Part shown: positions 2,850-56,302 of the stretch, piece after piece
How the letters are laid out: the number at the start of each line of letters is the position of its first letter
Position numbering within the stretch: position 1 is the stretch's first letter
Assembly (NCBI GenBank): GCA_002989075.1
Contig: PSQN01000014.1
Coordinates: forward strand, 682,001-746,000
Direction: 5' to 3'
From: Arthonia radiata
Lineage: Eukaryota; Ascomycota; Arthoniomycetes; Arthoniales; Arthoniaceae
DNA length: 64,000 nucleotides
Made by a program: the position numbers and the translations under genes
Notes under the pieces: generated by a model
Told to the model about the DNA's origin: nothing
The model's input: the letters and a program-made list of their open reading frames with translations, nothing else
The model's database searches: none

Positions 2850-3380
2850 TCAATAGCCTCCTTGCCAACCCGCATTCCCCATCAACATTCGCGTTGGCAC
2901 CAAGACCAGTCCTGACGGCATTGTCGGCGCTGATGCTGGCGCAAGCCACGATGGGAGAGCCTTGGAAACCATATGTCCGACCGCTCGATTGACACACTTT
3001 TCGGCTTGCGCAGCGAGAGGCTTAGCAAATACCCCCGCGACGGTCATTGCCATGTCCGGGCCATGCTCAATCAGCGCTAATTTGCAGGCTGCGCAGGTGT
3101 TCCGGCAGCTCTGCAAGAACGAATTTGTTGTGTCGTGTTCGTGCTCGTGCGGTAAAAGCTGTTCATCTTGAGCCGGCAGATGTTCTTGTTGTTGGTGTGC
3201 TGCGGTTGCTCCGTTGCGTATTGGCAGGTAATTGATCTCGTAACTCTGCATGCGCCCGGTAACGTCAGGAGCCCAGCCGCGGTTGCCACCCGGGGCCAAG
3301 TTGATGACTTGTCTTTCGCCGTCGTGGAAAGGTCCGTTGTTGACAGCTGGAGGAGCGGTTTGGGGGATGGGCCTCGACAT
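2850..3380 (-). CDS. orphan protein, copy 2 of a tandem pair (176 aa)
   Basis: Family not recognised. The N-terminal third carries the same ordered motifs as the 481-aa neighbour: FHDG, then N-R-x-W, then GR-x-QSYEI. After that the proteins diverge. This copy has a Gln/His/Glu-rich linker, a small cysteine group (SCRNTCAACK at about residues 90-99) and a C-terminus ending WQGGY, with no equivalent of the long cysteine cluster and basic domain. Its 3' flank (2772-2840) can still be aligned with the last coding bases of the 481-aa gene, so this copy looks shortened, or the other one extended. Single exon, no signal peptide. Expression is plausible because an upstream block is shared with copy 1. 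Confidence 0.55.
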   Translation of the reverse strand: MSRPIPQTAPPAVNNGPFHDGERQVINLAPGGNRGWAPDVTGRMQSYEINYLPIRNGATAAHQQQEHLPAQDEQLLPHEHEHDTTNSFLQSCRNTCAACKLALIEHGPDMAMTVAGVFAKPLAAQAEKCVNRAVGHMVSKALPSWLAPASAPTMPSGLVLVPTRMLMGNAGWQGGY

Positions 3381-3889: not shown

Positions 3890-6800
3890 TTACCCACCGG
3901 CCCGACACTCCATACCCAGCGCACTTCTCCGACTAGCCCATTCCTTCTCAAGATGCGTTTGCTTCCCACTCAAAGCAAAGTGCTGAGCCAGTAATCGTGA
4001 TGACCTGGCTTCGCCTTCCCGGCCTTCCAGCCGCAGCCGCGTCATTTCATCGGATACTACTGTCGGGTCTGAACGACTGCTGAAGCTCCTTGCAACGGTC
4101 GCAGGGCCAGCATATGCGTTCAACACCGACTCGCTCCCAGGCAAACACACTTGATCCGCCTGCATGGTGACCTTGATGTCGTGCAGCAGGACCTCCATTG
4201 GGGCAATGTACGCACACTGTTTCGCTTGACTAAAGGCAAGAACGTGCCCGCACACTTTGCCGGATTCATTATCGACGACCCATGCACCAGAGTCACCGGG
4301 CACACCCAGCTTCTCGCCATTGGCAGCGGCAGCTTGGCCAGGGACTGGGATGGATCGCACCGTCCAGCTTTCGGACCATGTTCGACGACCCGCCATCTTG
4401 ACGAATTCCATGTAGGTCCCTGTCCTTCCGCAAGCTAAACCGCTGGTTCTACCATAAGAATGGACCGGGAGGTCAGCCAAGGAGTCAGAGGGCATCACGT
4501 GGACGGGATAGTGGTCTTCATCACTGCTGTACGGTTTGCGACACACAGGCTCGAGTAGTGGAGGTGGATTGACGCCGGAGGTGTTGATGGCTCCGCGTCT
4601 GCTCATCTTTGGCGGTGGTGCGGGTATGGAACGGCAGTGACGTCGGCCGCCTGGAACGACATTGTGAGGTTGCAATCGTGCGTGATCGAGCTTCATGAGA
4701 GCCCAATCAATCTCATGATCGATGCCGTTGTGAGTAAGGCGGCGAAGTCCGCTGGAGGCGTGGACTGTGCCGAGGGTGTGACTGGAGAGGTGGTCGTCAT
4801 CTTTATCCTCTTCGACGGGGAAGAAGTCATCTGGTATATCATCGAGAGCTGGCTGAGTGATGGTGATGTCTGCGCCGTGAATGCATGAGATGCCAGGAGT
4901 GTCGCCTTCCGCAAAGTTAGGTGTCGGAAAATCTGGGTACTGCCGCCCAGGGGACGGTGTCGAAGCAACAGTCTCGGGTTCGTCGTCGTCGTCGTCGACA
5001 TCCGAGAAAGTGATAGACTCAACGTCAGAGACATCGGAGAGATTGTCGTCAGCGTCCTCCGGGTCATTCCCTTCTAGATAATCCGCGAGCGTATCAATAC
5101 TCTGATGGCGGTGTGCCATCGAGCGCTGTGCATCTGAGCTGACAAGAGCGGGTACTGGCTCCTCTTCGTCATCGTCAACCTCCTCTTCCTCTTCAGGAGC
5201 TTCTAGCATGTGATGGACGCTCATGCCAAACGGTTCGCCATCAACAATGACGATGCCACCAAACGATACGGGTGGAAGATGCTCATCGTCTTTCCAAGCG
5301 CCAATAGAGGCTCCGCAGAGCGGCCTCACATGGTGATCGGTATTCTTCGCAGACGAATCGCTTGAGCTGGCGCCACTGCGACGTGGCACCATCGAGCGAC
5401 GAGCCGAAGCGCGGCGACCGAAGGCTTTCGACCGCGCAACGACACCCTTGAAGATGATGAGGTCGAAAACATTATTGTCGAATGCGAGATTCTTCTTGAC
5501 AGCTTTGTAAAACTTGGCAGTGCTTGTGCACATCACGCAAAACGTCGGCTTCGCCATGCTTTCAGACTGACCAAAACCATCAAGCGAAATGCTTGCTGAC
5601 TCCTTGTTGTCAAAGACGCACTCTCCAATCTTGCATAAGCGCTTCTGGATGCGAAATGCTTCTTTGTAGACAGCCTGAAGTAGGGGACACCGGGGAAATA
5701 GGTATCGCGGTGGCCTGAAAGCACGTTTCACGATCGCGCCGGAGCCGAGGCCTGTGATTTCAAAGTCGGGGAACACTGGTGCTTCTGGCCAAGCACCGGG
5801 AGGTGCGCCAGGTGAAGAGATCTGAGATATATCATCAGTCTCAAACGGCGCGCTTCTGGGCTTCGCTAGAGGCATCGAAGGGGACAACATCGAAGATCGA
5901 GAAACCGGGTCGGAGAGTGCTGCAGACTCTGGGATGGGGTGCTTCTCGTTCAGACGATACGTGTACATCAGTGCCGTTTGTTCGGTCTTGTCATATGCGG
6001 CTGGTGGCTCCTCCATTTCTGCTTCATCCAAAAGACAGCACTTCCGGAGACGCGCACTGATTCGACTAAAAGCATCTTTTTGCGCTTTGGCAGGTAAAGC
6101 CTCATCGCTACTGATGTCGATGAGCTCCTGTACGACCTTCATGTAGACCGTGCCGCATTCGGATGCCAGTCGAGGGATGTATATTTTCTTGAGTCTTAAA
6201 CTGAAATCGCGGAGAGAGTACTTGACTTTGAACATTTTCGCCAGAGGTGCCCATAGCCCAATTTCCAGTAGAAGGAGAGCAAGGCTGTACATGTCGAAAC
6301 GAGAATGGTATCCTTCCGATCCAGTAGCAGCACTCCGAATGCGAGGATCATCGGGATGTCGGTACATGTTCTGATGAAGGTTCTCACGCTCACGATCAAT
6401 GTCATACTCGGAGAAGAGGTCAAAAGCGCAGACAACAGGCTTACGGACGAGGTAGTGCATGCCTGAATTGGCCTTGGCTGGGGTTTGCTGGGTTGAAGGT
6501 CCAGGAAAGAAGGTGACGCTGGTGCTATTGATGTCTTTGTGAGTGAAGCCACGATCGAGGAGATGCGTAACACCAGCAACAAGCTCGTTGGCAAGAATGA
6601 ATCGATCCTCCAGTGCTGGATTGATCACGGGGAAGGCAGGCGTAGGCGTTGCTTGAGCTGCTGCTTGCAGCAGAGAATGGAGGCTCTCTGGCCTCATCAC
6701 CGATGCTGGCTGATTGAAGTAGACACTTTGTGCCCATTGCGGAAGCTCGTATACCAGGCCAACCCTTGGAAACGTCGAATCTTCAAAGTAGCCGACGAAG

Positions 6801-7702
6801 TTGAGCAGCGGACCAGGTCGCTTAGCGTTTGCGTTGGCAAGAATGTTTGACAGTTGATTCAGGCGTGTGAAAGGGAGCGGTACTTGGTTGCCTCGATAAA
6901 TTGGGTCGAACCTAGCGTACTCAACCAAGACAGGCGTGGTCGCCTCATAGTGATCCTGACCCTTGAAGTCACGGTGGAGGGCTTGAGTCCGCATTCGACC
7001 AACGATTTGTACTGGACATGGCATGCCAAAGCTGTCATAGGGCGGCGATGCCTCCTCGGGCATGATGAGCATGGTGCGCTCGATCTTCCGTGCGGTTGCT
7101 GAAGCCGGATCCTCCTGCGCCTGAAGTTGCTTGGCAAGCTCCTCAGAGGCTTTGGATGCCTCATACTCGGACAGAGCGCAAATGTCAGCACCCTGCAGAT
7201 TCGCATGCGCGCCCGGCGCAGAGCCTTGAGACGCGGGTCTTTTCTGACCCAGACTGCAAAGAAGATCGATGGCGTTAGTAATGTCTCTGACGAGGTCGTT
7301 GTAGTGTCCAATGTCCGAAGAGTCCCATCTGGCCTTCTCTATTGGGAATCCACTGGGTTGGCTTTGGGTAGGTCGAATCCTCAGCCTCAGCTTTTCGACT
7401 TCATCGATCATGCCGATGATATTCTCCATGACACTGGAGACGACCTCGGTGAGCCCTGCTCGCTCGACCGTCTCCCCAATTACGCGCTCTCCGGAGGCGT
7501 CGCTGCTGTCTGTCCACTCCAGGCCCCATGCTATCAAGCGATCCTTCTGCATGCGGAACTTGCGATTCGCAGACTGCAGCTCCGGGACATCATCAGCCGT
7601 CGAGGTTGGAATGGCGGAGCGGTACGACTGCTTGGCGTTGGAGTAGAGCTGGGATAAACGATTGGGGTTGCCGCCGGCCTCGGTCCCTCTGATGCCCTCC
7701 AT
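3890..7702 (-). CDS. HeLo-like / pseudokinase / trypsin-like serine protease fusion (1270 aa)
   Basis: Single exon. Met at 7702 (context CATCATGG) is preferred over 7846, because the extra 48 codons read like translated leader. Residues ~15-150 resemble a HeLo-type prion/cell-death domain (MQKDRLIAWGLEW at 51-63, similar to the KLDxAxxRLxRWG helix). Residues ~240-560 are kinase-like: VYEL hinge at 317-320, HKD at 388-390, FDL in place of DFG near 427, MYRHPDD, then FDMYSLALLLLEIGLW at 469-484. The catalytic-loop Asn and Lys are not conserved, so it is probably a pseudokinase. Residues ~800-1180 form a chymotrypsin-fold protease with SVHHM (His831), EIDWALMKLD (Asp999) and GVPGDSGAWV (Ser1138, codon at 4289-4291). 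About 120 acidic, low-complexity residues separate His and Asp. HeLo-kinase proteins are widespread in fungi and linked to programmed cell death; the fused intact protease suggests proteolytic activation. Function is inferred. Confidence 0.75.
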   Translation of the reverse strand: MEGIRGTEAGGNPNRLSQLYSNAKQSYRSAIPTSTADDVPELQSANRKFRMQKDRLIAWGLEWTDSSDASGERVIGETVERAGLTEVVSSVMENIIGMIDEVEKLRLRIRPTQSQPSGFPIEKARWDSSDIGHYNDLVRDITNAIDLLCSLGQKRPASQGSAPGAHANLQGADICALSEYEASKASEELAKQLQAQEDPASATARKIERTMLIMPEEASPPYDSFGMPCPVQIVGRMRTQALHRDFKGQDHYEATTPVLVEYARFDPIYRGNQVPLPFTRLNQLSNILANANAKRPGPLLNFVGYFEDSTFPRVGLVYELPQWAQSVYFNQPASVMRPESLHSLLQAAAQATPTPAFPVINPALEDRFILANELVAGVTHLLDRGFTHKDINSTSVTFFPGPSTQQTPAKANSGMHYLVRKPVVCAFDLFSEYDIDRERENLHQNMYRHPDDPRIRSAATGSEGYHSRFDMYSLALLLLEIGLWAPLAKMFKVKYSLRDFSLRLKKIYIPRLASECGTVYMKVVQELIDISSDEALPAKAQKDAFSRISARLRKCCLLDEAEMEEPPAAYDKTEQTALMYTYRLNEKHPIPESAALSDPVSRSSMLSPSMPLAKPRSAPFETDDISQISSPGAPPGAWPEAPVFPDFEITGLGSGAIVKRAFRPPRYLFPRCPLLQAVYKEAFRIQKRLCKIGECVFDNKESASISLDGFGQSESMAKPTFCVMCTSTAKFYKAVKKNLAFDNNVFDLIIFKGVVARSKAFGRRASARRSMVPRRSGASSSDSSAKNTDHHVRPLCGASIGAWKDDEHLPPVSFGGIVIVDGEPFGMSVHHMLEAPEEEEEVDDDEEEPVPALVSSDAQRSMAHRHQSIDTLADYLEGNDPEDADDNLSDVSDVESITFSDVDDDDDEPETVASTPSPGRQYPDFPTPNFAEGDTPGISCIHGADITITQPALDDIPDDFFPVEEDKDDDHLSSHTLGTVHASSGLRRLTHNGIDHEIDWALMKLDHARLQPHNVVPGGRRHCRSIPAPPPKMSRRGAINTSGVNPPPLLEPVCRKPYSSDEDHYPVHVMPSDSLADLPVHSYGRTSGLACGRTGTYMEFVKMAGRRTWSESWTVRSIPVPGQAAAANGEKLGVPGDSGAWVVDNESGKVCGHVLAFSQAKQCAYIAPMEVLLHDIKVTMQADQVCLPGSESVLNAYAGPATVARSFSSRSDPTVVSDEMTRLRLEGREGEARSSRLLAQHFALSGKQTHLEKEWASRRSALGMECRAGG

Positions 7703-8334
7703 GATGTTACGAAGTGAAAGCGAATGGAGTGAAATTACAGAAAATGTATGGCACGGCAAGTTTCGCCAGATGTCCAGCGGTTCGAGCAGGGACGGCTGGC
7801 GAACACTCTCGTCAAGGCCGTATGCACGTGGAGCTGAACGGTGCAAGGAATGAAAGGATTGAGGAAAGAGAACAAGCCAAGATGGGAGAGGCTACAGCCA
7901 GAAGAAGAGGAATCTGGTTGCCTCGCGCGCGGTCAGCAGAGTGGACCCGGAGGCCTTGGAAGGGATGGTGGTCGGCACAAGAGAGGAGTGGTGGAATCAA
8001 TTAATTCTGGAGCCTGGTGCTCTTCTCTGGTTGTCCCGAGGGAAGACACCAGCCACAGAGGGGCGTTGTTCTCAGCCACACTTTCGGCGTCTCATCTGAG
8101 CACTGGCCATTGAATAGCCGCCACTAACCTCACTTGAGCCTAATGCCCTATTCAAGCACGCGCTTGACGCAAGATTTAAGAAACCCAGATTGAAGCTTCC
8201 ATTGCTGTCAACAACCGTCTCGTCGCGCGTCATCACTCACGCGTCGCAACTCTCATCTCGTCTGCTTCAGCCCCGAGATGCGCTGACTACAACGCTTACC
8301 ACTCAAATACACGAAACGCCCTTACGTACGCACA
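7703..8334. other. divergent promoter region
   Basis: This shared upstream region lies between the reverse-strand HeLo/protease gene and the forward membrane-protein gene. No coding sequence is supported; the open frames here are extensions or shadows. Confidence 0.5.
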
Positions 8335-9555
8335 ATGGGTCCGCGACGGCCTGCAACCCAGGCGCTGTCGCAAAGCTTGGAAGCCAAAGACGACACAGCT
8401 CGATTGAGAAGAGGCCGCGCTGGTAGCTCTGCAAAGAATGCTCCAGCAGATGGCCATGCGCCCAGCGCAAATGCCGTCGCTGTTCCAGCTACCATCCAGC
8501 CTCCCTCGCGCGCCGGACTTCAGTACAACCTGGCATCGCTCAGTCATTTCCTCATCACCGCTACCGTCACACTCGTTTTACAAGCCTTCTTCTCGGCAGC
8601 GGTCGAGCAGATACAGGGAAGGCAGCTTGGTAGCGTGTCCAGGCGTTTCAACAGCACATGGAGCGTGCTTGGTCTGACCGCATGGAAATTGTTTGAGCTG
8701 GCAGTCGGATGGACTGCAGGCTATGGCAGTATGTGACCATCTTCTCTGACAGTCGCAGCAGGATTGGCTGACGTTGACGTAGACGTTGCGATCGCACCCT
8801 TCATCGCGCTTTTGCGCCTCCCACACATGTACCTGCTCAACGCATACTACGAGGTGCCCTTCCTACCGCTCTTCGCCGAGCTCATCACACACTTCTCGGC
8901 CGCTTCGCTAGCCTTCTCTATCTTCCGACGACCCGCCGTCTACCGACCCGTCAAGAGTTCGAGCATCATCGATCGGACGATGCGTGGAGACTTGACGTTC
9001 CAAATCACCTCGACAGCTTTCTCCACCGCGCTGTTCGCTCTGCCGATCCTTGCGAGCATCTACACTTGGCTGCCAACGCATCTCGCCGTACACTGGGATG
9101 GCCTCAAGACCCTTGAAAAGGCGCACGAAGCCACGGTCGCTTCGATGTTCCAGCATCTCATCGGTATGGGCTGGTGTACTATGTATCTACTGCTAGACTA
9201 CGTGGCTACGAAACCGGATGACAAGTCAGATGATGCCAATACTTCCCAGGCGACGGAGGAGAAAGCGTTTGACCCAAGCACATCGTCTCTATTGGAGCAC
9301 ATCAACTACAACATCGACAATTTGCTGTTCTGGCGGCATGCAAAACCGGCTGGCAAAGCGCTGCTCAAGCATACGGTTTTCCTCGCCCTGTGCCTCACCT
9401 TGGATGCGGCATTCCAGTCGTGCGCGACTATCGAAGGATGCGAGATTGCAGGTCTGAATTGGCTTGAGGGGCCGCTTCCTTGGGGAGGTCTTTGGGGGCT
9501 GGGGATGGTTATGAGTGGCCTCGGACTCGGCTGGGTCGCTGGTGTCTGGGCGTAA
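8335..9555 (+). CDS. multi-pass membrane protein of unknown function (388 aa)
   Basis: Two exons are inferred, 8335-8728 and 8783-9555. The intron has GTATGT, a GGCTGACG branch site and GACGTAG. The downstream frame remains open either way, so a shorter acceptor at 8761 (33-bp intron) cannot be excluded. The start ATG sits in ACACAATGG-like context (CGCACAATGGG). The first ~60 residues are polar and probably cytosolic. Six or so hydrophobic segments follow: around FLITATVTLVLQAFFSAAV, IALLRLPHMYLLNAYY, LFALPILASIYTWL, GMGWCTMYLLLDYV, TVFLALCLTLDAAF and a glycine-rich last helix near GGLWGLGMVMSGLGLG. A charged loop (DDKSDDAN) lies between helices 4 and 5. I do not recognise the family. An endomembrane location is a reasonable guess because no cleavable signal peptide is visible. 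Confidence 0.75.
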
Positions 9556-19324: not shown

Positions 19325-21182
19325 TCATAGGAAGCCCTCGATGTTCATCTCCAGTGAACTGGCTGGGAATCTGCAATATCTGTCAGCCTTCAGAACTTGC
19401 GCAAAACAAGGCCTTAACTTACGGCAACTCGTACTTCTTCAACACACTCGGATGCAGAATCCCAAATTCGCCCACACCCCTCGTCTTGCCTTGTTGTCTT
19501 ACCCTGATTGTTGCCGCATGGCCCTTCAAGAAAGTGGGATCGTCTCGTTCCTCGATCCAGTACCCACCCATTTTCTCGTCTTGCCGCTTATCATCGAGCA
19601 AGAAGGGCAGACTCAGCATCCGCATCTCGCGATCTAGAAGCCCGTGAACCATTTCGAAGCCGCTCGCCTTACCATACCAAACGGCACCGACGTGCCGCTC
19701 ATTTCTGGTCTTTCGTTCTCGGTCCAGATCTTTGAAGGCAACGTCACTGACCTCGAACAAGCGCATCGGTACTGCGTGGTGCTTGTTCTCTCTTGCACAC
19801 TTCAGCAATCCCGGTACCAAGCTTGTCCGCACTATCTGATACTCGGCTGTCTTCGGATTCGCCAGCCTTATCGCAGTTTTGCCATCATCTTTCCGGTTCA
19901 TCCAGCCATAATTCTCATCATGTGAACACAAAATCAACGGTAAGACCTCCGTCCAGCCTGACATTGCTGCCTCGACTCGCACCAAATCTGCCAGCTTGTT
20001 GAGAGGCAACGGTGCAGCAATCGTGGCCGCTTTGTGCGGAAAGGTGCGCGGAAGCTTGTTGAAGCCGTATGCAACTGCCACATCCTCCATTATGTCAGCT
20101 TGGTGGAGGATATCAGCTCTCGTGACCGGCACGACGACATCCAAAATCTTCTCGGGCTCAGACTTTGACGGTGTGGCAGAGTATCCCATGCGCTTCAGCA
20201 GCTTGCAAATATCTTGACCCTTGAGCCCTGGGATGCCCGTACACGTTGCGATATAGTCAACCTCAGCCGTCGTATGTCTCGGATTCATGTCTGGTGTAAT
20301 TCTGGTCTGGCCGTTGTGTTCGCTCACTATCTTTACAGGTTCGACCGTGAACGGCTCGGAGCAATACTGGCTGAACATTGCCACAATCTCTGCAATCACA
20401 ATATCTAACTTTGTCCGATCGGTTGCCGTGGTATCAATGAAGACATCCTTAGTCTCCAGAGTTATCTTAGAGCGATCACCGTTGATGATGGGCGGCATGG
20501 ACAGCACCGTCCTCTCCTCGTCATAGATGACTGGATACACCGGCGAGTCTTTGATGATGTGCAAATACCGCCCCAGATGTCGATCTTTCTCATAAAACTG
20601 CATCATCTGGGTAGCACTCATTGACTTCTCCTGATTTAGTGGAGCAAATTTGATCTTCTGTGGCGGTAAGGCTTCATACGTGAAATTAGGGCCTTTGATC
20701 TTGTCCAAATCGTGAGTTCCAATGGCCACCAGAGTTCTTTGCCTCGCTAAATTTTGATGCAGCTTTTCTTGCAGACTGATGAAACTATCGTACCTGCTCT
20801 GGTCGAACTTGATGCCCCTGAGAATAGCGCCAGCGCAGAACGGCCGTACTTGTGCTGTGGCTGGGTCTACCCGAAGCTCGTGCAGCTTACCGTCCTTTGG
20901 AGGCTGAACCGTGAAGCGAGGAGGTTCGCGACGGCCAAGAAACACATTAAGAGCTGTGGCGATGCCTTCAAAGCAGAGCATGTCATACCGATTAGCTGGA
21001 ATCTCGATCTTGAGCTCTGGAAGCTCTTGAGTGCCATCTTCTCGGGTTGGTCGAGGCTGATCTGTAGTGTCCTCATCGAGCTCGATGCCGTAATCAAAGC
21101 AAAGGTCTTCAAACTCCTCTGTGGTATACGATCGGCCAAGTGCTTCGAAGAGGGCTGCTTTGTTGACAGATATGGTGGGCAT
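19325..21182 (-). CDS. frs1: cytosolic phenylalanyl-tRNA synthetase beta subunit (601 aa)
   Basis: Two exons: 21182-19423 and a tiny last exon 19370-19325. The 52-bp intron (GTAAGT, GGCTGACAG, TTGCAG) splits the codon after KKYEL, and splicing gives the C-terminus ELPFPASSLEMNIEGFL, which matches the conserved end of eukaryotic beta subunits. The N-terminus MPTISVNKAALFEALG, the B3/B4 region (EIPANRYDMLC, ALNVFLGR), the B5 domain and the catalytic-core-like fold (MSGWTEVLPLILCSHDENY, NPKTAEYQIVRTSLVPGLLK) are in the usual order. It pairs with the alpha subunit to charge tRNA-Phe. Essential housekeeping gene with no anomaly. The next gene starts ~0.8 kb away on the other strand. Confidence 0.95.
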
Positions 21183-51228: not shown

Positions 51229-53729
51229 CCTAGCATGCCACCATTTCTGTTTCGCCTACACTCGCGCGAACCCACACGCAATGGATTGCAAGAGAAGGTC
51301 GACCCTTGCCGCGGCCATGTCGCTAAACTACAGCAATATTTTAAGGAATGTTTTTGGCGACATATTGTGTTTGGTGCGATAGCAAGGAGGCGTTGAACTC
51401 CACTGAGTACTCATTTTTCTTGTCATCAAGCGAGATAGTGTCCTGTAATGGCAAAATGCACTGCCTTGCAGCAGCTCGAATAGGTAATCACTCAACGACT
51501 GCAACTCATGAGCATGACCGGCGATGACGAACCCAGCCGTTTGAGTCTATGCATGAAATTCCAAATGCTTTTTCATCGCATCTTGTTGTCGGGATTTGGC
51601 AAGTCACCTGTACTGGAGCAGGCGCTGATGATGCACCGTGTCGAGGTCGCGACATCATGCATGCTGCGCATTAGCCTGCGCCATGCATTTGACGTCCATC
51701 GGGGTGAGTCTCGGTAGTGTGTCTGAGCAATTGCTCATACCAGCACCACACAGGTACTATTACGATGTACGAGAAGGGTGTGAGCCTCTCAGAACAGGAC
51801 CATGGTCGAGCCCGTCCTCTTAGTCCCGTTATCAACCATATCCCTCCCAGGAATACGGGTGGTGCGCCTCTGCCGCCATTTGCTGACTGTCCGGACGAGA
51901 AACTGAAGTGCGTCTCACTTCTCGGCTCGGTCGTGACTACTAGAACGCACCAGAAGTCCGCCATCCGCGCAGCAAACACAAGCTGCCAAACCCAATCGAA
52001 GACGATCGGACTTCACGCGCAGACGGTTCACTGCTGGGTCCTCTTCGTGCAAGCTCCATCTGATGCACTTCCACCTCGGTTGCTCACGTGTCACAGATCT
52101 CAGTGCCACCATCAAAGACATAGCAAACACAGCACTGTCCCCATTGTCCGCGTTCCGTACTCTCTAATGACGGCTCTCGCCGCCGACCTGCCGTGTCCGA
52201 AAAAGCGGTGAGAGCCATTGGATATACTCGAACGCCTCGCCACAGCCATGTCGGAGATCCTGTAGGATGCCTTCCCCGCTGCATGTAAGCTTTTGCCGTG
52301 AACGATGGATCCCATGAGGCAGTTGATCGACGTGAAGGTAATGCGCATTAAGACTTTCGGCAGTGGGGTCCTGTCGTACTATGATCGGCACATTGGTAAG
52401 TACTCGTCAAGCCACTGCTGATGTATGTTCTCTGCATCATGCAAAGCCGTCCACAAGCTTCCTCTTAGTCACCAAAACACGTTGGCGCGTGGTTCTCTTC
52501 ACTGGGGTTCGTGAGCACAATCACCCCCCCTCGAAACATGGCCTTTGTCGTTGTAGTCGTGTCATATGCGCTCATGTCCACGTTCGCGCTGTCTAAGCTA
52601 TCAACACGCCATTCTAAGTCATACAAATTCTTGAGCGTCTCGATCAGAACTTTTACGTACCGCCCCTGTCTCACGCTCACAAGCTCACACTCGAAATCAC
52701 CGAACATTCCGTCACATCGACTGTAGAATTCTCTTAATCCCCTCTACCGCAGACGTCTCTCACTCCCATTCCCATGCACTGCTCTCACGCACATGCACCG
52801 TACATATCCCTCACCGCATCCACCAAGCCCATCCTCCACCAAGGCGCCCCATTCCTCTCTCTCACTAAACGCCTTCGGCCCCCTCTCACTCCCACCCCAC
52901 CCCTTCCCCCTTCTCCCTCGAACCAAAGCACACCTACTCTCCCATCTCCGACCTAGCTTCACCCCTCATCTTACAACTCACAATAATCTTCTTCCCCTGA
53001 GACGCACATACACCTCCCTCCTACCATCCACCCTGTCTCCACCCAGCCCCTCCACCTTTAACAATCACGAACATTCCAAGCAACCTTCGTTACAAGTCTC
53101 GATACAGACAGCAATGCCACCCTCCAACGGAGTCCCAGCGCTCTACGCCACCGCACACTCCGACCACTCTACCTGCCTTGCCTGTTCCGCCGCATACATC
53201 GCCCGAGAAACCACATATCACATGGGCACAAACACGTAACGTAGACGTGATCTTTTACCCGACATTCGCGGACGCACTCGCTGCCCTGTCCGTTCTTGTT
53301 TTCTTCTTGAGACTACTTATGATAACCGCGTAAGCTACTCCGCTGTCGCTCCTGCGTGACCGATTAACACCCAACCGCGCGTCCCATCAAAGTATACGTA
53401 GTGTGATGATTGACTTATGATTAAGCTCCATGTGAGGTGACACGCCCAGCCATGACGGCGGTTGGAAAAACCGCGAGGCAATATCTGCATCTCGTACAAG
53501 CAAAGTCATGGAAGCAAACAAGGCGTTGTAGGGTCCCAGCAGCAACAACAACCCACCTATAAGTCACAGAGCGAACATTCTATCGCACATACCGCAGCTT
53601 TCGCTCATTCTCGCGTGATTCCACAAGCCTTCAACGATGACAAACACCCTTGACAATACCTACACTACACACTATTCACACACTATCCAACCCACACCCA
53701 TCCCCTCGACCTCCCCCTTCACCTTCCCA
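51229..53729. other. long gene-poor region
   Basis: About 2.5 kb. Small ORFs are scattered: 51717-52211 (forward), 52465-52707 (reverse, starting MFGDFECELVSVRQGRY) and a 41-codon ORF at 53114-53239. None has a recognised domain. A G-poor, C/T-rich tract on the forward strand covers about 52735-53090. Confidence 0.4.
53114..53239 (+). CDS. possible small ORF of 41 codons after a pyrimidine-rich tract
   Basis: The ORF begins MPPSNGVPALYATAHSDHST in an ACAGCAATGCC context, right after ~350 bases of C/T-rich forward-strand sequence that resembles a fungal core promoter or leader. It has two cysteines in CLAC. A GTAACG directly before the stop could be a splice donor, in which case this would be a first exon. 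I do not recognise it; it may be chance. Confidence 0.22.
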   Translation: MPPSNGVPALYATAHSDHSTCLACSAAYIARETTYHMGTNT

Positions 53730-56302
53730 TCACCGCTCCAAGAACGCCAACCCCCCCACGCCCCCACAACTCCGCTCCAACACCAATCGACTCCAATGAC
53801 TCCCCACAACCGGCCTTGCAATAAACCTGATCCCCTCCCCAAACTCGCCGTCACCCTCCGTATTAAACAAATCGCTCAACGGCAGATCCGTACTAGTCTC
53901 ATTAATCCACTTCGCGAAGCGCGCCAGCAGCTCCTGGCGCACGGGCTTCGTCGCGACCGCCGCCGCCTGCATCATCCAGTCTGATTTGGTGTAGAGGTGG
54001 CGGGATTCCAGGGGGAGGCCGTAGCGCTGCATGACGTCTGTGTAGAAGGCGGATTGGTTGAGGTAGAGTTGTGAGGGGAGGTAATTTTCCGCGCGCGAGG
54101 CGTTGTGGTCCGGCGCGGGTTTGAGCGGTTTCTGGCCGTCGAAACGCGCATCCGGATGTGCGGGCATGACGTCGTCGTGGGGATGGAAGCACAGCTGCGC
54201 GTCCGCGTAGAGCGAGTACAGCGTCACCCAGCTGCCGTACCAGTCGTACGCGAGGTTGGCGTGGCTGCCGTCGCGGCTCATGCCATACTCGGGCGTCAGG
54301 AACTTCGCAGCGTAGACGTCGCTGATGTTGCGGTAGTACTTGCGCTCGTCTTCCTGGCCGAGGATGTCGGCGATTTCGGACATGGCTCGGATGCCCACCA
54401 TGCCTTTGAGCGCTAGGTTGGATTGGAGGGGAAGCCAGCCGGCGAAGTCGTCGGTGCAGAGTTGGTTGCCTGGCCGGAGAGAGTTGTCGATGAGGAAGGT
54501 GGTCCATTGCTTGAGGAGGGAGTATGAGCGGGAGAGCCAGGCTTTCGCCTTTAGCTGTCCTGCGACGGCACCGCCCCAGGCGTTGTCTAATCCGGAGGTG
54601 AACTCGCTGGCTGTAATTAAGGGGGAGACCTCCAGCGGGAAGGGTGTCTTTGCGATTCCGTCGCCGGATTCGACGTGCTCGCGCACGGTCAACAATTGTG
54701 GCGGCAGGTCTGCTTCGAAACCGGTGGCTGCCCAGGGACTTTGCGCATCCTCCGCTTCGGCATACTGCAGCGAATTTGAGAGGGCAAGCGCCATGATGAG
54801 CATGTCTCCACATTCTTCGACAGGCATGTATTCGTCGTTGCCATCGGCGTGGCCAGTCTCGTTCGGGAAGTGTGCGCCGAGGTCGTGCATGCTGTATTGA
54901 TTCGGGTATTGCCCGGACAGCTGATGCTCCAGCAGCGGTTCGAGTAGATAAGCGAGCCACCTCGGGTTCGTATACAGGAAGAATGGGAAAGCCGGGAAGA
55001 TGACATCCACCGTTTGCGTATTTCCGTTGGATGAGATCTCTTTGAGGAACAGCAGCGGGTTCTCAGGCGTGCCGGAGAAGGACGTCGCGCCCATGACCTG
55101 GCGGGAAGAGAGTGCAAGGATGTCAGCGTAGTCTGCACCGCCAGATTCGTAAGCGTCGGCGGCAAGCCTGGAAGAATAGGCGTGAGCCTGCTTGGCCGCG
55201 GTCTGGTAGTCCAGGTAATGAAACATGATCAACGCCCACTCGCTGACGAACCAAGTCTTCCAAAGCGGCCGCATGAGCGTCAGTCCTCGCTCAGAAGCGA
55301 ACTGCACGATCTCGTCTTGGATGTGAGCGATCGTGAACAGCACGTCACTTGAATTGCTCTCCGAGGATGAGAGGTGCAGCATCTTCGAAAAAGCGAACGC
55401 CGGCTCGTTGTCGCGAATGCCACGGTACTCGCGCTCCATCTTGTTTCTCAGCCCGTGTCTCTTCGCAAAGGTCTGGCGCACCTCATGCGAGTCACCGCAT
55501 TGGTACTTGGCCTCTGGAGGTCCAGTGAAGTGCAATCGTCCCCACTCAGCGCGGTCGTAGAACTCAGTGAAGTGCTCTTCGTGCTTGCGCTGGAATTGCC
55601 ATGTCCACAGTGCACCTGACTCATCAAACTCGACTGTCTGCAAATACCACGAAATATGGTTGTTTGGATCCCCGGACACAAAGTCGCCATTAACGTCCAT
55701 GTATACCGAGACATCGAAGGAGCCTTTGGCTTCTATGTGGACGTATGAGGCCGGGATGGACTGACGGAGAGACGAAGCGGGCGTGATCGGCGAAAGAAAG
55801 GATATGGTGAGCTCGACCGGCTCGACATTGTCCGGGCCTGGGATCAGGTAGGTGAGGTTGGTCGTGGACGCGTCGAACTGGGCGCCTTGGTAGCGTGGGA
55901 AAGAGACAGTGTAGCTATGATTTGTTACTATCAGGGCTTGTTATGCCGCAAACACCCAGACTTACTCAGAATCTTCGTGATTTAAGAAATCGTGCGGGCG
56001 GCCCAGCAGAGGATATACCGTATTCGTATCCGGGACAGAAGCCATCATGCTCATGCCAATCTGTCGCGCTGTGTCAGTCCCGTCCCTTGCAGGCTCCAAA
56101 CATGGTCACTTACGTATTGGCCAGTCCAAAACATGGGCCATCTGTCCCATGGATCGTCCCGCGCATTTTGAAGGTGGGTATTGAGGTACGGATTGCGGAC
56201 GATGAGAGGCAGCGTAGGAGGCGTGAGATGAGATGCTTCGACTGTAATGAGGGCTATGCTGAGGCTTGCCAGGCCGAACAGGAAGCGAGAATATCCAAAC
56301 AT
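53730..56302 (-). CDS. gtaA: secreted glutaminase A-like protein (GtaA family, 822 aa)
   Basis: Three exons: 56302-56114, 56060-55966 and 55914-53730. Introns are 53 bp (GTAAGT..GACAG) and 51 bp (GTAAGT..CATAG). The joined sequence reads RWPMFWTGQYIGMSMMASV and NHEDSDYTVSFPRYQG. Signal peptide MFGYSRFLFGLASLSIALITVEA. The family regions appear in order: N-terminal beta domain with VRNPYLNTHLQ, PVELTISFLSP and FDVSVYMDVNGDFVSG; then the helical part with SRQVMGATSFS, DVIFPAFPFFLYTNP, ECGDMLIMALAL, NLALKGMVGIRAMSEIA, YDWYGSWVTLY and TKSDWMMQAA. Relatives in Aspergillus hydrolyse glutamine to glutamate outside the cell. Several N-x-S/T sites fit secretion. Confidence 0.88.

Follow-up and report, generated by a model that had tools for sequence, protein, structure and literature searches.

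A predicted Arthonia radiata protein with a HeLo-derived domain, a kinase-like region and chymotrypsin-type protease motifs

Related fungal systems and the Arthonia radiata locus

HeLo domains are described as pore-forming cell-death domains (PMC9815663). The best-known example, HET-S of Podospora anserina, kills through membrane insertion, and its residues 1–34 form a buried membrane segment that causes toxicity when it is released (PMC3531502). Some HELL domains are joined to a kinase or pseudokinase domain in an MLKL-like arrangement, and kinase-like domains may likewise be attached to the fungal proteases that control gasdermins (PMC12881547). The named ones among these proteases, HET-Q2-like and others, belong to the S8 serine or CHAT cysteine types (PMC12881547, PMC10197012). 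Here, we describe a gene in a 64,000-nucleotide stretch of Arthonia radiata DNA (the window; bases 682001–746000 of contig 5 in the genome that was searched, which comprises 33.5 Mb in 16 contigs). The predicted product, called the fusion protein below, combines a HeLo-derived N-terminus with a kinase-like middle region and a C-terminal half carrying chymotrypsin-type motifs. Our preferred reading, to which we assign a probability of roughly 0.45, is that it may be a cytosolic serine protease of several domains, in which the HeLo/pseudokinase scaffold used by fungal proteins of cell death and nonself recognition forms the base.

The fusion protein resembles the HET-S HeLo domain (PF14479) in its profile match and in W59, L105, W126, and L148, which it has in common with four HeLo loci, but it lacks a hydrophobic helix 1 and carries two large extra regions after the HeLo domain. 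With the fungal HELL-kinase and HELL-pseudokinase proteins it shares a predicted bundle of the HeLo kind and, after the bundle, a kinase-like region whose loop is degenerate; it differs from them in its hydrophilic helix 1 and in some 650 additional residues that contain protease motifs. Like the HET-Q2-like proteases, among which kinase-like fusions are reported, it is a multidomain putative protease, but its motifs are of the chymotrypsin type rather than S8 or CHAT. The genome yielded no match to the gasdermin model PF04598, a weak negative given that the sensitivity of this model to fungal gasdermins is not established. The fusion protein holds protease-like and HeLo-like parts in a single chain, but as to the traits of fungal NOD-like receptors, Pfam showed neither a nucleotide-binding domain nor repeats in the whole protein at E ≤ 10.

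Related pairwise fusions thus have precedent, since both HELL/pseudokinase and protease/kinase-like fusions have been described (PMC12881547). Among the open-access papers listed in literature searches, none showed all three parts in this order or placed a chymotrypsin-type protease in such a setting, and no paper was listed for DUF7580 or for “HeLo domain” together with “peptidase S1”. The order of HeLo, kinase-like, and chymotrypsin-like parts given in a preliminary description of this DNA holds up, the third part by its motifs only.

The gene itself is real. Its frame of 1270 codons runs along the minus strand from an ATG at 7702 to 3893 without an internal stop and is followed by a stop codon at 3890–3892; the gene is single-copy and stop-free in the genome. 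Codon position 2 has the lowest G+C content in 11 of 12 consecutive segments (position 3 is lowest for residues 531–636), which fits coding throughout. Three short intron-like patterns of 55, 74, and 98 bases lie within the frame, and none of these lengths is a multiple of three.

3893..7702, minus strand: whole coding frame, 1270 amino acids (stop-free translation and genome match)

The HeLo domain and its first helix

7238..7666, minus strand: HeLo-type helical domain, residues 13–155 (PF14479 match, four-locus alignment, and structure model)
7613..7666, minus strand: hydrophilic helix in place of the HeLo membrane helix, residues 13–30 (model, alignment, and hydropathy)

Judged by profile and alignment, the N-terminus appears to be a HeLo-derived domain. 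Residues 1–180 alone match PF14479 with 26.2 bits (E = 8e-6; curated cut-off 23.2), and none of six shuffles of this piece that were scanned with Pfam, out of nine generated, matches HeLo, which bears out the HeLo-type helix phrase earlier noticed near residues 51–63. The preliminary description is therefore not refuted by its own criterion of a missing HeLo match. The agreement with the profile applies to the isolated piece but not to the full-length protein, which scores 18.9 bits and falls under the cut-off. The best match places residues 42–114 on profile positions 33–102. A genome scan with PF14479 listed four other loci and not the fusion gene; in an alignment, W59, L105, W126, and L148 are common to the fusion protein and these four, at 16–24% identity. 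Two of the four, L003 and L004 (contig 12, 1482395–1482967 and 1468108–1468608), are similar genes about 14 kb apart that apparently arose by local duplication.

The single-sequence structure model of residues 1–160 is a helical bundle with helices at 13–30, 40–62, 71–81, 85–108, and 128–153, a predicted template modeling score of 0.65, and a predicted local distance difference test score (pLDDT) of 69.7, the highest among five models (52.9–69.7). Foldseek returned 414 PDB matches for this model at E ≤ 10 and none at E ≤ 0.001. The top 50 of these are mostly generic helical bundles, and HET-s is absent among them; the potato Rx coiled-coil domain, at rank 27 with E = 1.5, was not used as evidence. 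Because this fold search gave no specific match, the structure supports a bundle and not specifically a HeLo domain.

Where the four HeLo loci have a hydrophobic first helix, the fusion protein has a hydrophilic one. Over the helix-1 alignment columns, the fusion protein averages a hydropathy of −1.1 and the HeLo loci average +1.26, +0.97, +0.93, and +1.42. Residues 1–45 contain no hydrophobic stretch, and their best 19-mer reaches −0.47; in three of the HeLo loci, the best N-terminal 19-mers reach 1.36–1.84. For the fourth, L005, the 19-mer value of 0.24 derives from a later Met and misses the helix, and alignment-column hydropathy was used instead. The Pfam match begins only at profile position 33. 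Nor was a convincing upstream exon that could supply helix 1 found on the minus strand at 7703–8400, with three frames read over 7601–8400. Four of the five ATGs in this region start frames of 7–12 codons. The fifth, at 8233, starts a frame of 53 codons with a mildly hydrophobic 19-mer (0.79) but without a GTRNGY donor at or below 8233; this frame was judged probably not to encode a HeLo helix 1. A hydrophobic stretch without an ATG at about 7916–7815 was likewise set aside as a candidate first exon. By hydropathy, profile start, and inspection of 7703–8400, the fusion protein seems to have no hydrophobic N-terminal membrane segment of the HET-S type.

The hydrophilic helix 1 and the lack of a convincing upstream exon at 7703–8400 are the main result against a membrane-attack function: the HeLo domain seems to lack the hydrophobic helix needed for piercing membranes. 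They bear directly on the proposal, made in the preliminary description, that self-cleavage by the protease releases a membrane-attacking HeLo killer from the N-terminus. The presence of a HeLo domain and triad motifs in a single chain speaks for such a mechanism, as does the mode of killing of HET-S (PMC3531502), but the late start of the profile match, the hydrophilic helix, and the upstream region all speak against it, and the sequence analysis neither supports nor excludes self-cleavage. We consider this explanation highly improbable. The broader idea that one protein couples sensing, proteolysis, and membrane attack keeps its basis in the order of HeLo, kinase-like, and protease-motif regions, but its membrane-attack step is disfavored. 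With a HeLo domain seemingly devoid of the membrane helix, the putative protease end is therefore the likelier effector.

The kinase-like middle region and the protease motifs

5903..6925, minus strand: kinase-like (DUF7580) region, approximately residues 260–600, estimated limits (sub-threshold PF24476 match and alignment A1)
6515..6541, minus strand: degenerate catalytic loop HKDINSTSV, residues 388–396 (motif search)

The middle region is likely a pseudokinase. Its kinase-like loop, HKDINSTSV at residues 388–396, keeps Asp390, whereas Asn392 and Ser395 stand at positions where active kinases carry Lys and Asn. The earlier account of a kinase-like middle with a degenerate loop is thus right about the loop, but the match to PF24476 (DUF7580) stays below the cut-off of 27 bits, at 16.4 bits for the whole protein and 19.4 and 20.1 for two pieces. 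A genome scan with PF24476 listed seven other loci, six of them over the cut-off, and not the fusion gene. When the middle region was combined with five of these seven loci in a profile (A1), both PDB matches obtained were to the kinase MuSK, with the catalytic loops aligned but weak scores (E = 1.5); as a single sequence, the middle region matched nothing in the PDB. On this evidence, a pseudokinase is likely, not proven.

In all seven other DUF7580 loci, the open frame stops 3–13 residues past the domain match (introns not considered), so that the C-terminal half of the fusion protein looks like an addition. Upstream of DUF7580, the frames of the four loci examined for this (L006–L009) have a strongly hydrophobic N-terminal segment (best 19-mer 1.90–2.17) and no Pfam domain over the cut-off; these loci may encode HeLo-like/pseudokinase proteins without a Pfam name. 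Two DUF7580 loci, L009 and L010, lie 38 kb and 140 kb into contig 9, both less than 141 kb from its start, and are perhaps subtelomeric.

4103..5320, minus strand: putative chymotrypsin-like protease region, residues 795–1200, estimated limits (motif order and sub-threshold capsid protease match)
5210..5212, minus strand: His831 codon (motif search)
4706..4708, minus strand: Asp999 codon (motif search)
4289..4291, minus strand: Ser1138 codon (motif search)
4778..5179, minus strand: acidic insert between His and Asp, approximately residues 842–975, limits set by eye (composition of residues 832–998)

A chymotrypsin-like protease in the C-terminal half is likely but not proven, to judge from the following motifs. 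SVHHM at 828–832 (His831), DWALMKLD at 999–1006 (Asp999), and GDSGAW at 1136–1141 (Ser1138) stand at the positions and in the order first reported for them, which is chymotrypsin-like, and they are typical boxes under a loosened signature. That His…Asp…Ser signature is generic and was composed after the motifs were known. Of 100,000 shuffles of the C-terminal 500 residues, 10 contain it, compared with 909 for the GDSG-like Ser box alone; in the window, one of the 38 frames of at least 200 residues contains it, namely, the fusion gene. A DNA pattern of the GDSG[AS]W type, searched without mismatches, was found once in the genome, in the fusion gene, and its reverse not at all. The gap of 167 residues between His831 and Asp999 contains 48 acidic and 6 basic residues.

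Searched against the PDB, the half containing Ser1138 gave six matches at E ≤ 10, none of them significant. Three are alphavirus capsid proteases (E = 0.46–1.1), and PGDSGAWVVDNESGKV aligns in register, from the Ser box onward, with PGDSGRPILDN-SGKV of a capsid protease, again without significance. The other three were not counted; two are to granzyme C, aligned outside the Ser box, and one is to a lectin. The sole peptidase model found, the Tox-MPTase5 metallopeptidase, scores 13.2–15.5 bits with a cut-off of 27.3 and was rejected as chance.

Several results weigh against our preferred reading. GDSGAW and SVHHM depart from the usual trypsin boxes and fit only the loosened signature. The earlier description of an intact trypsin-like protease end is correct in the order of the motifs but finds no backing in profiles: neither Pfam nor NCBIfam lists a serine-peptidase model for the protein or its pieces, and genome scans with Trypsin_2 (PF13365; four loci) and Trypsin (PF00089; none) omit the fusion gene. 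A profile comparison by hhalign to three of the genome's Trypsin_2 sequences came out no better than the reversed control (scores of 12.8 and 14.9 for two query forms, 16.0 reversed, and 10.1–14.5 for five shuffles), and the single-sequence model of residues 771–1270, with a pLDDT of 37.4, is too poor for use on the geometry of the triad or a double β-barrel. To these are added the sub-threshold DUF7580 match, the lack of a death-system partner among the ten neighboring frames scanned with Pfam, and the lack of a homologue of the fusion protein among viral, prokaryotic, and phage sequences (phages by tblastn). The missing homologues are not evidence of rarity, because the search covered these kinds of sequence only. 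Pfam and PDB searches of pieces, and with the acidic loop and a linker removed, gave nothing significant, as did a PADLOC scan.

These results can be accounted for in two other ways. The protease motifs could be chance, with the C-terminal half mostly a disordered linker; the acid-rich stretch, the low pLDDT (albeit of a single-sequence model), the frequency of the Ser box alone among the shuffles, and the empty hhalign result all suit this explanation. Against it stand the rarity of the combined His/Asp/Ser signature and the register, though non-significant, of the Ser box and downstream residues with the capsid proteases, and we regard chance as distinctly improbable. Alternatively, the protein could be an MLKL-like HeLo/pseudokinase whose C-terminus is a non-catalytic binding module with a chymotrypsin or other β fold. 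The HeLo and DUF7580-like regions, the added appearance of the C-terminus next to the seven other DUF7580 frames, and the missing serine-peptidase profile match are in line with this possibility, but all three triad residues stand in order, as in 10 of 100,000 shuffles, and the hydrophilic helix 1 does not suit an MLKL-like executor. This explanation appears rather improbable.

Neighborhood and proposed function

Besides the fusion gene, the window contains 26 frames of at least 220 residues, of which eight were scanned with Pfam together with two shorter neighbors. Four of seven nearby frames match over the cut-off, namely to P450, adenylosuccinate lyase, the Phe-tRNA synthetase β chain, and acetyl-CoA carboxylase; the adjoining frames at 2853–3380, 8335–8733, and 8764–9552 have no such match. 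The first of these, a 176-residue frame on the minus strand (2850–3380) about 500 bases downstream of the fusion gene, has no Pfam match even at E ≤ 1; it is possibly a partner or substrate of the fusion protein, or unrelated. The Phe-tRNA synthetase frame (19422–21182, minus strand) also matches Effector-associated domain 7 at 19.1 bits, with a cut-off of 32, probably by chance. Elsewhere in the window, the block at 52001–54000 has the strongest GC skew (−0.343) among the 32 blocks of 2 kb, the second strongest measuring 0.151 in size.

This setting would also suit an ordinary intracellular protease with no part in nonself recognition or cell death, as all four Pfam-matched frames among the seven nearby are metabolic or housekeeping genes and the genome holds no other match to the protein (the last 470 residues, searched separately, have no second match at E ≤ 10). 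The N-terminus argues otherwise, HeLo domains being otherwise reported to be pore-forming cell-death domains (PMC9815663), and we hold this explanation to be unlikely.

The fusion protein most likely acts as a sensor-protease and not as a membrane attacker. In the serine protease that we propose, the HeLo bundle, without a membrane-inserting helix, would assemble or dock the protein, presumably in the cytosol; the pseudokinase would sense or relay a signal; and the chymotrypsin-like end, if folded and active, would be gated by the acidic insert and cleave a different protein; the whole may have a link to cell death. A more far-reaching version, which we find doubtful, is that a formerly pore-forming HeLo domain has become an assembly adaptor for a pseudokinase-gated chymotrypsin-type protease, giving an induced-proximity protease of necroptosis-like lineage whose killing or signaling works through cleavage and not through membrane piercing.

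If true, this last version would involve a protease class other than the ones named in the accessible literature on fungal cell-death sensors. If the C-terminus is active, a chymotrypsin-type protease would occupy a HeLo/pseudokinase scaffold, as compared with the S8 and CHAT types named so far in the accessible parts of PMC12881547 and PMC10197012. A HeLo domain without its membrane helix, if confirmed, would make it possible to ask what roles the bundle has beyond pore formation.

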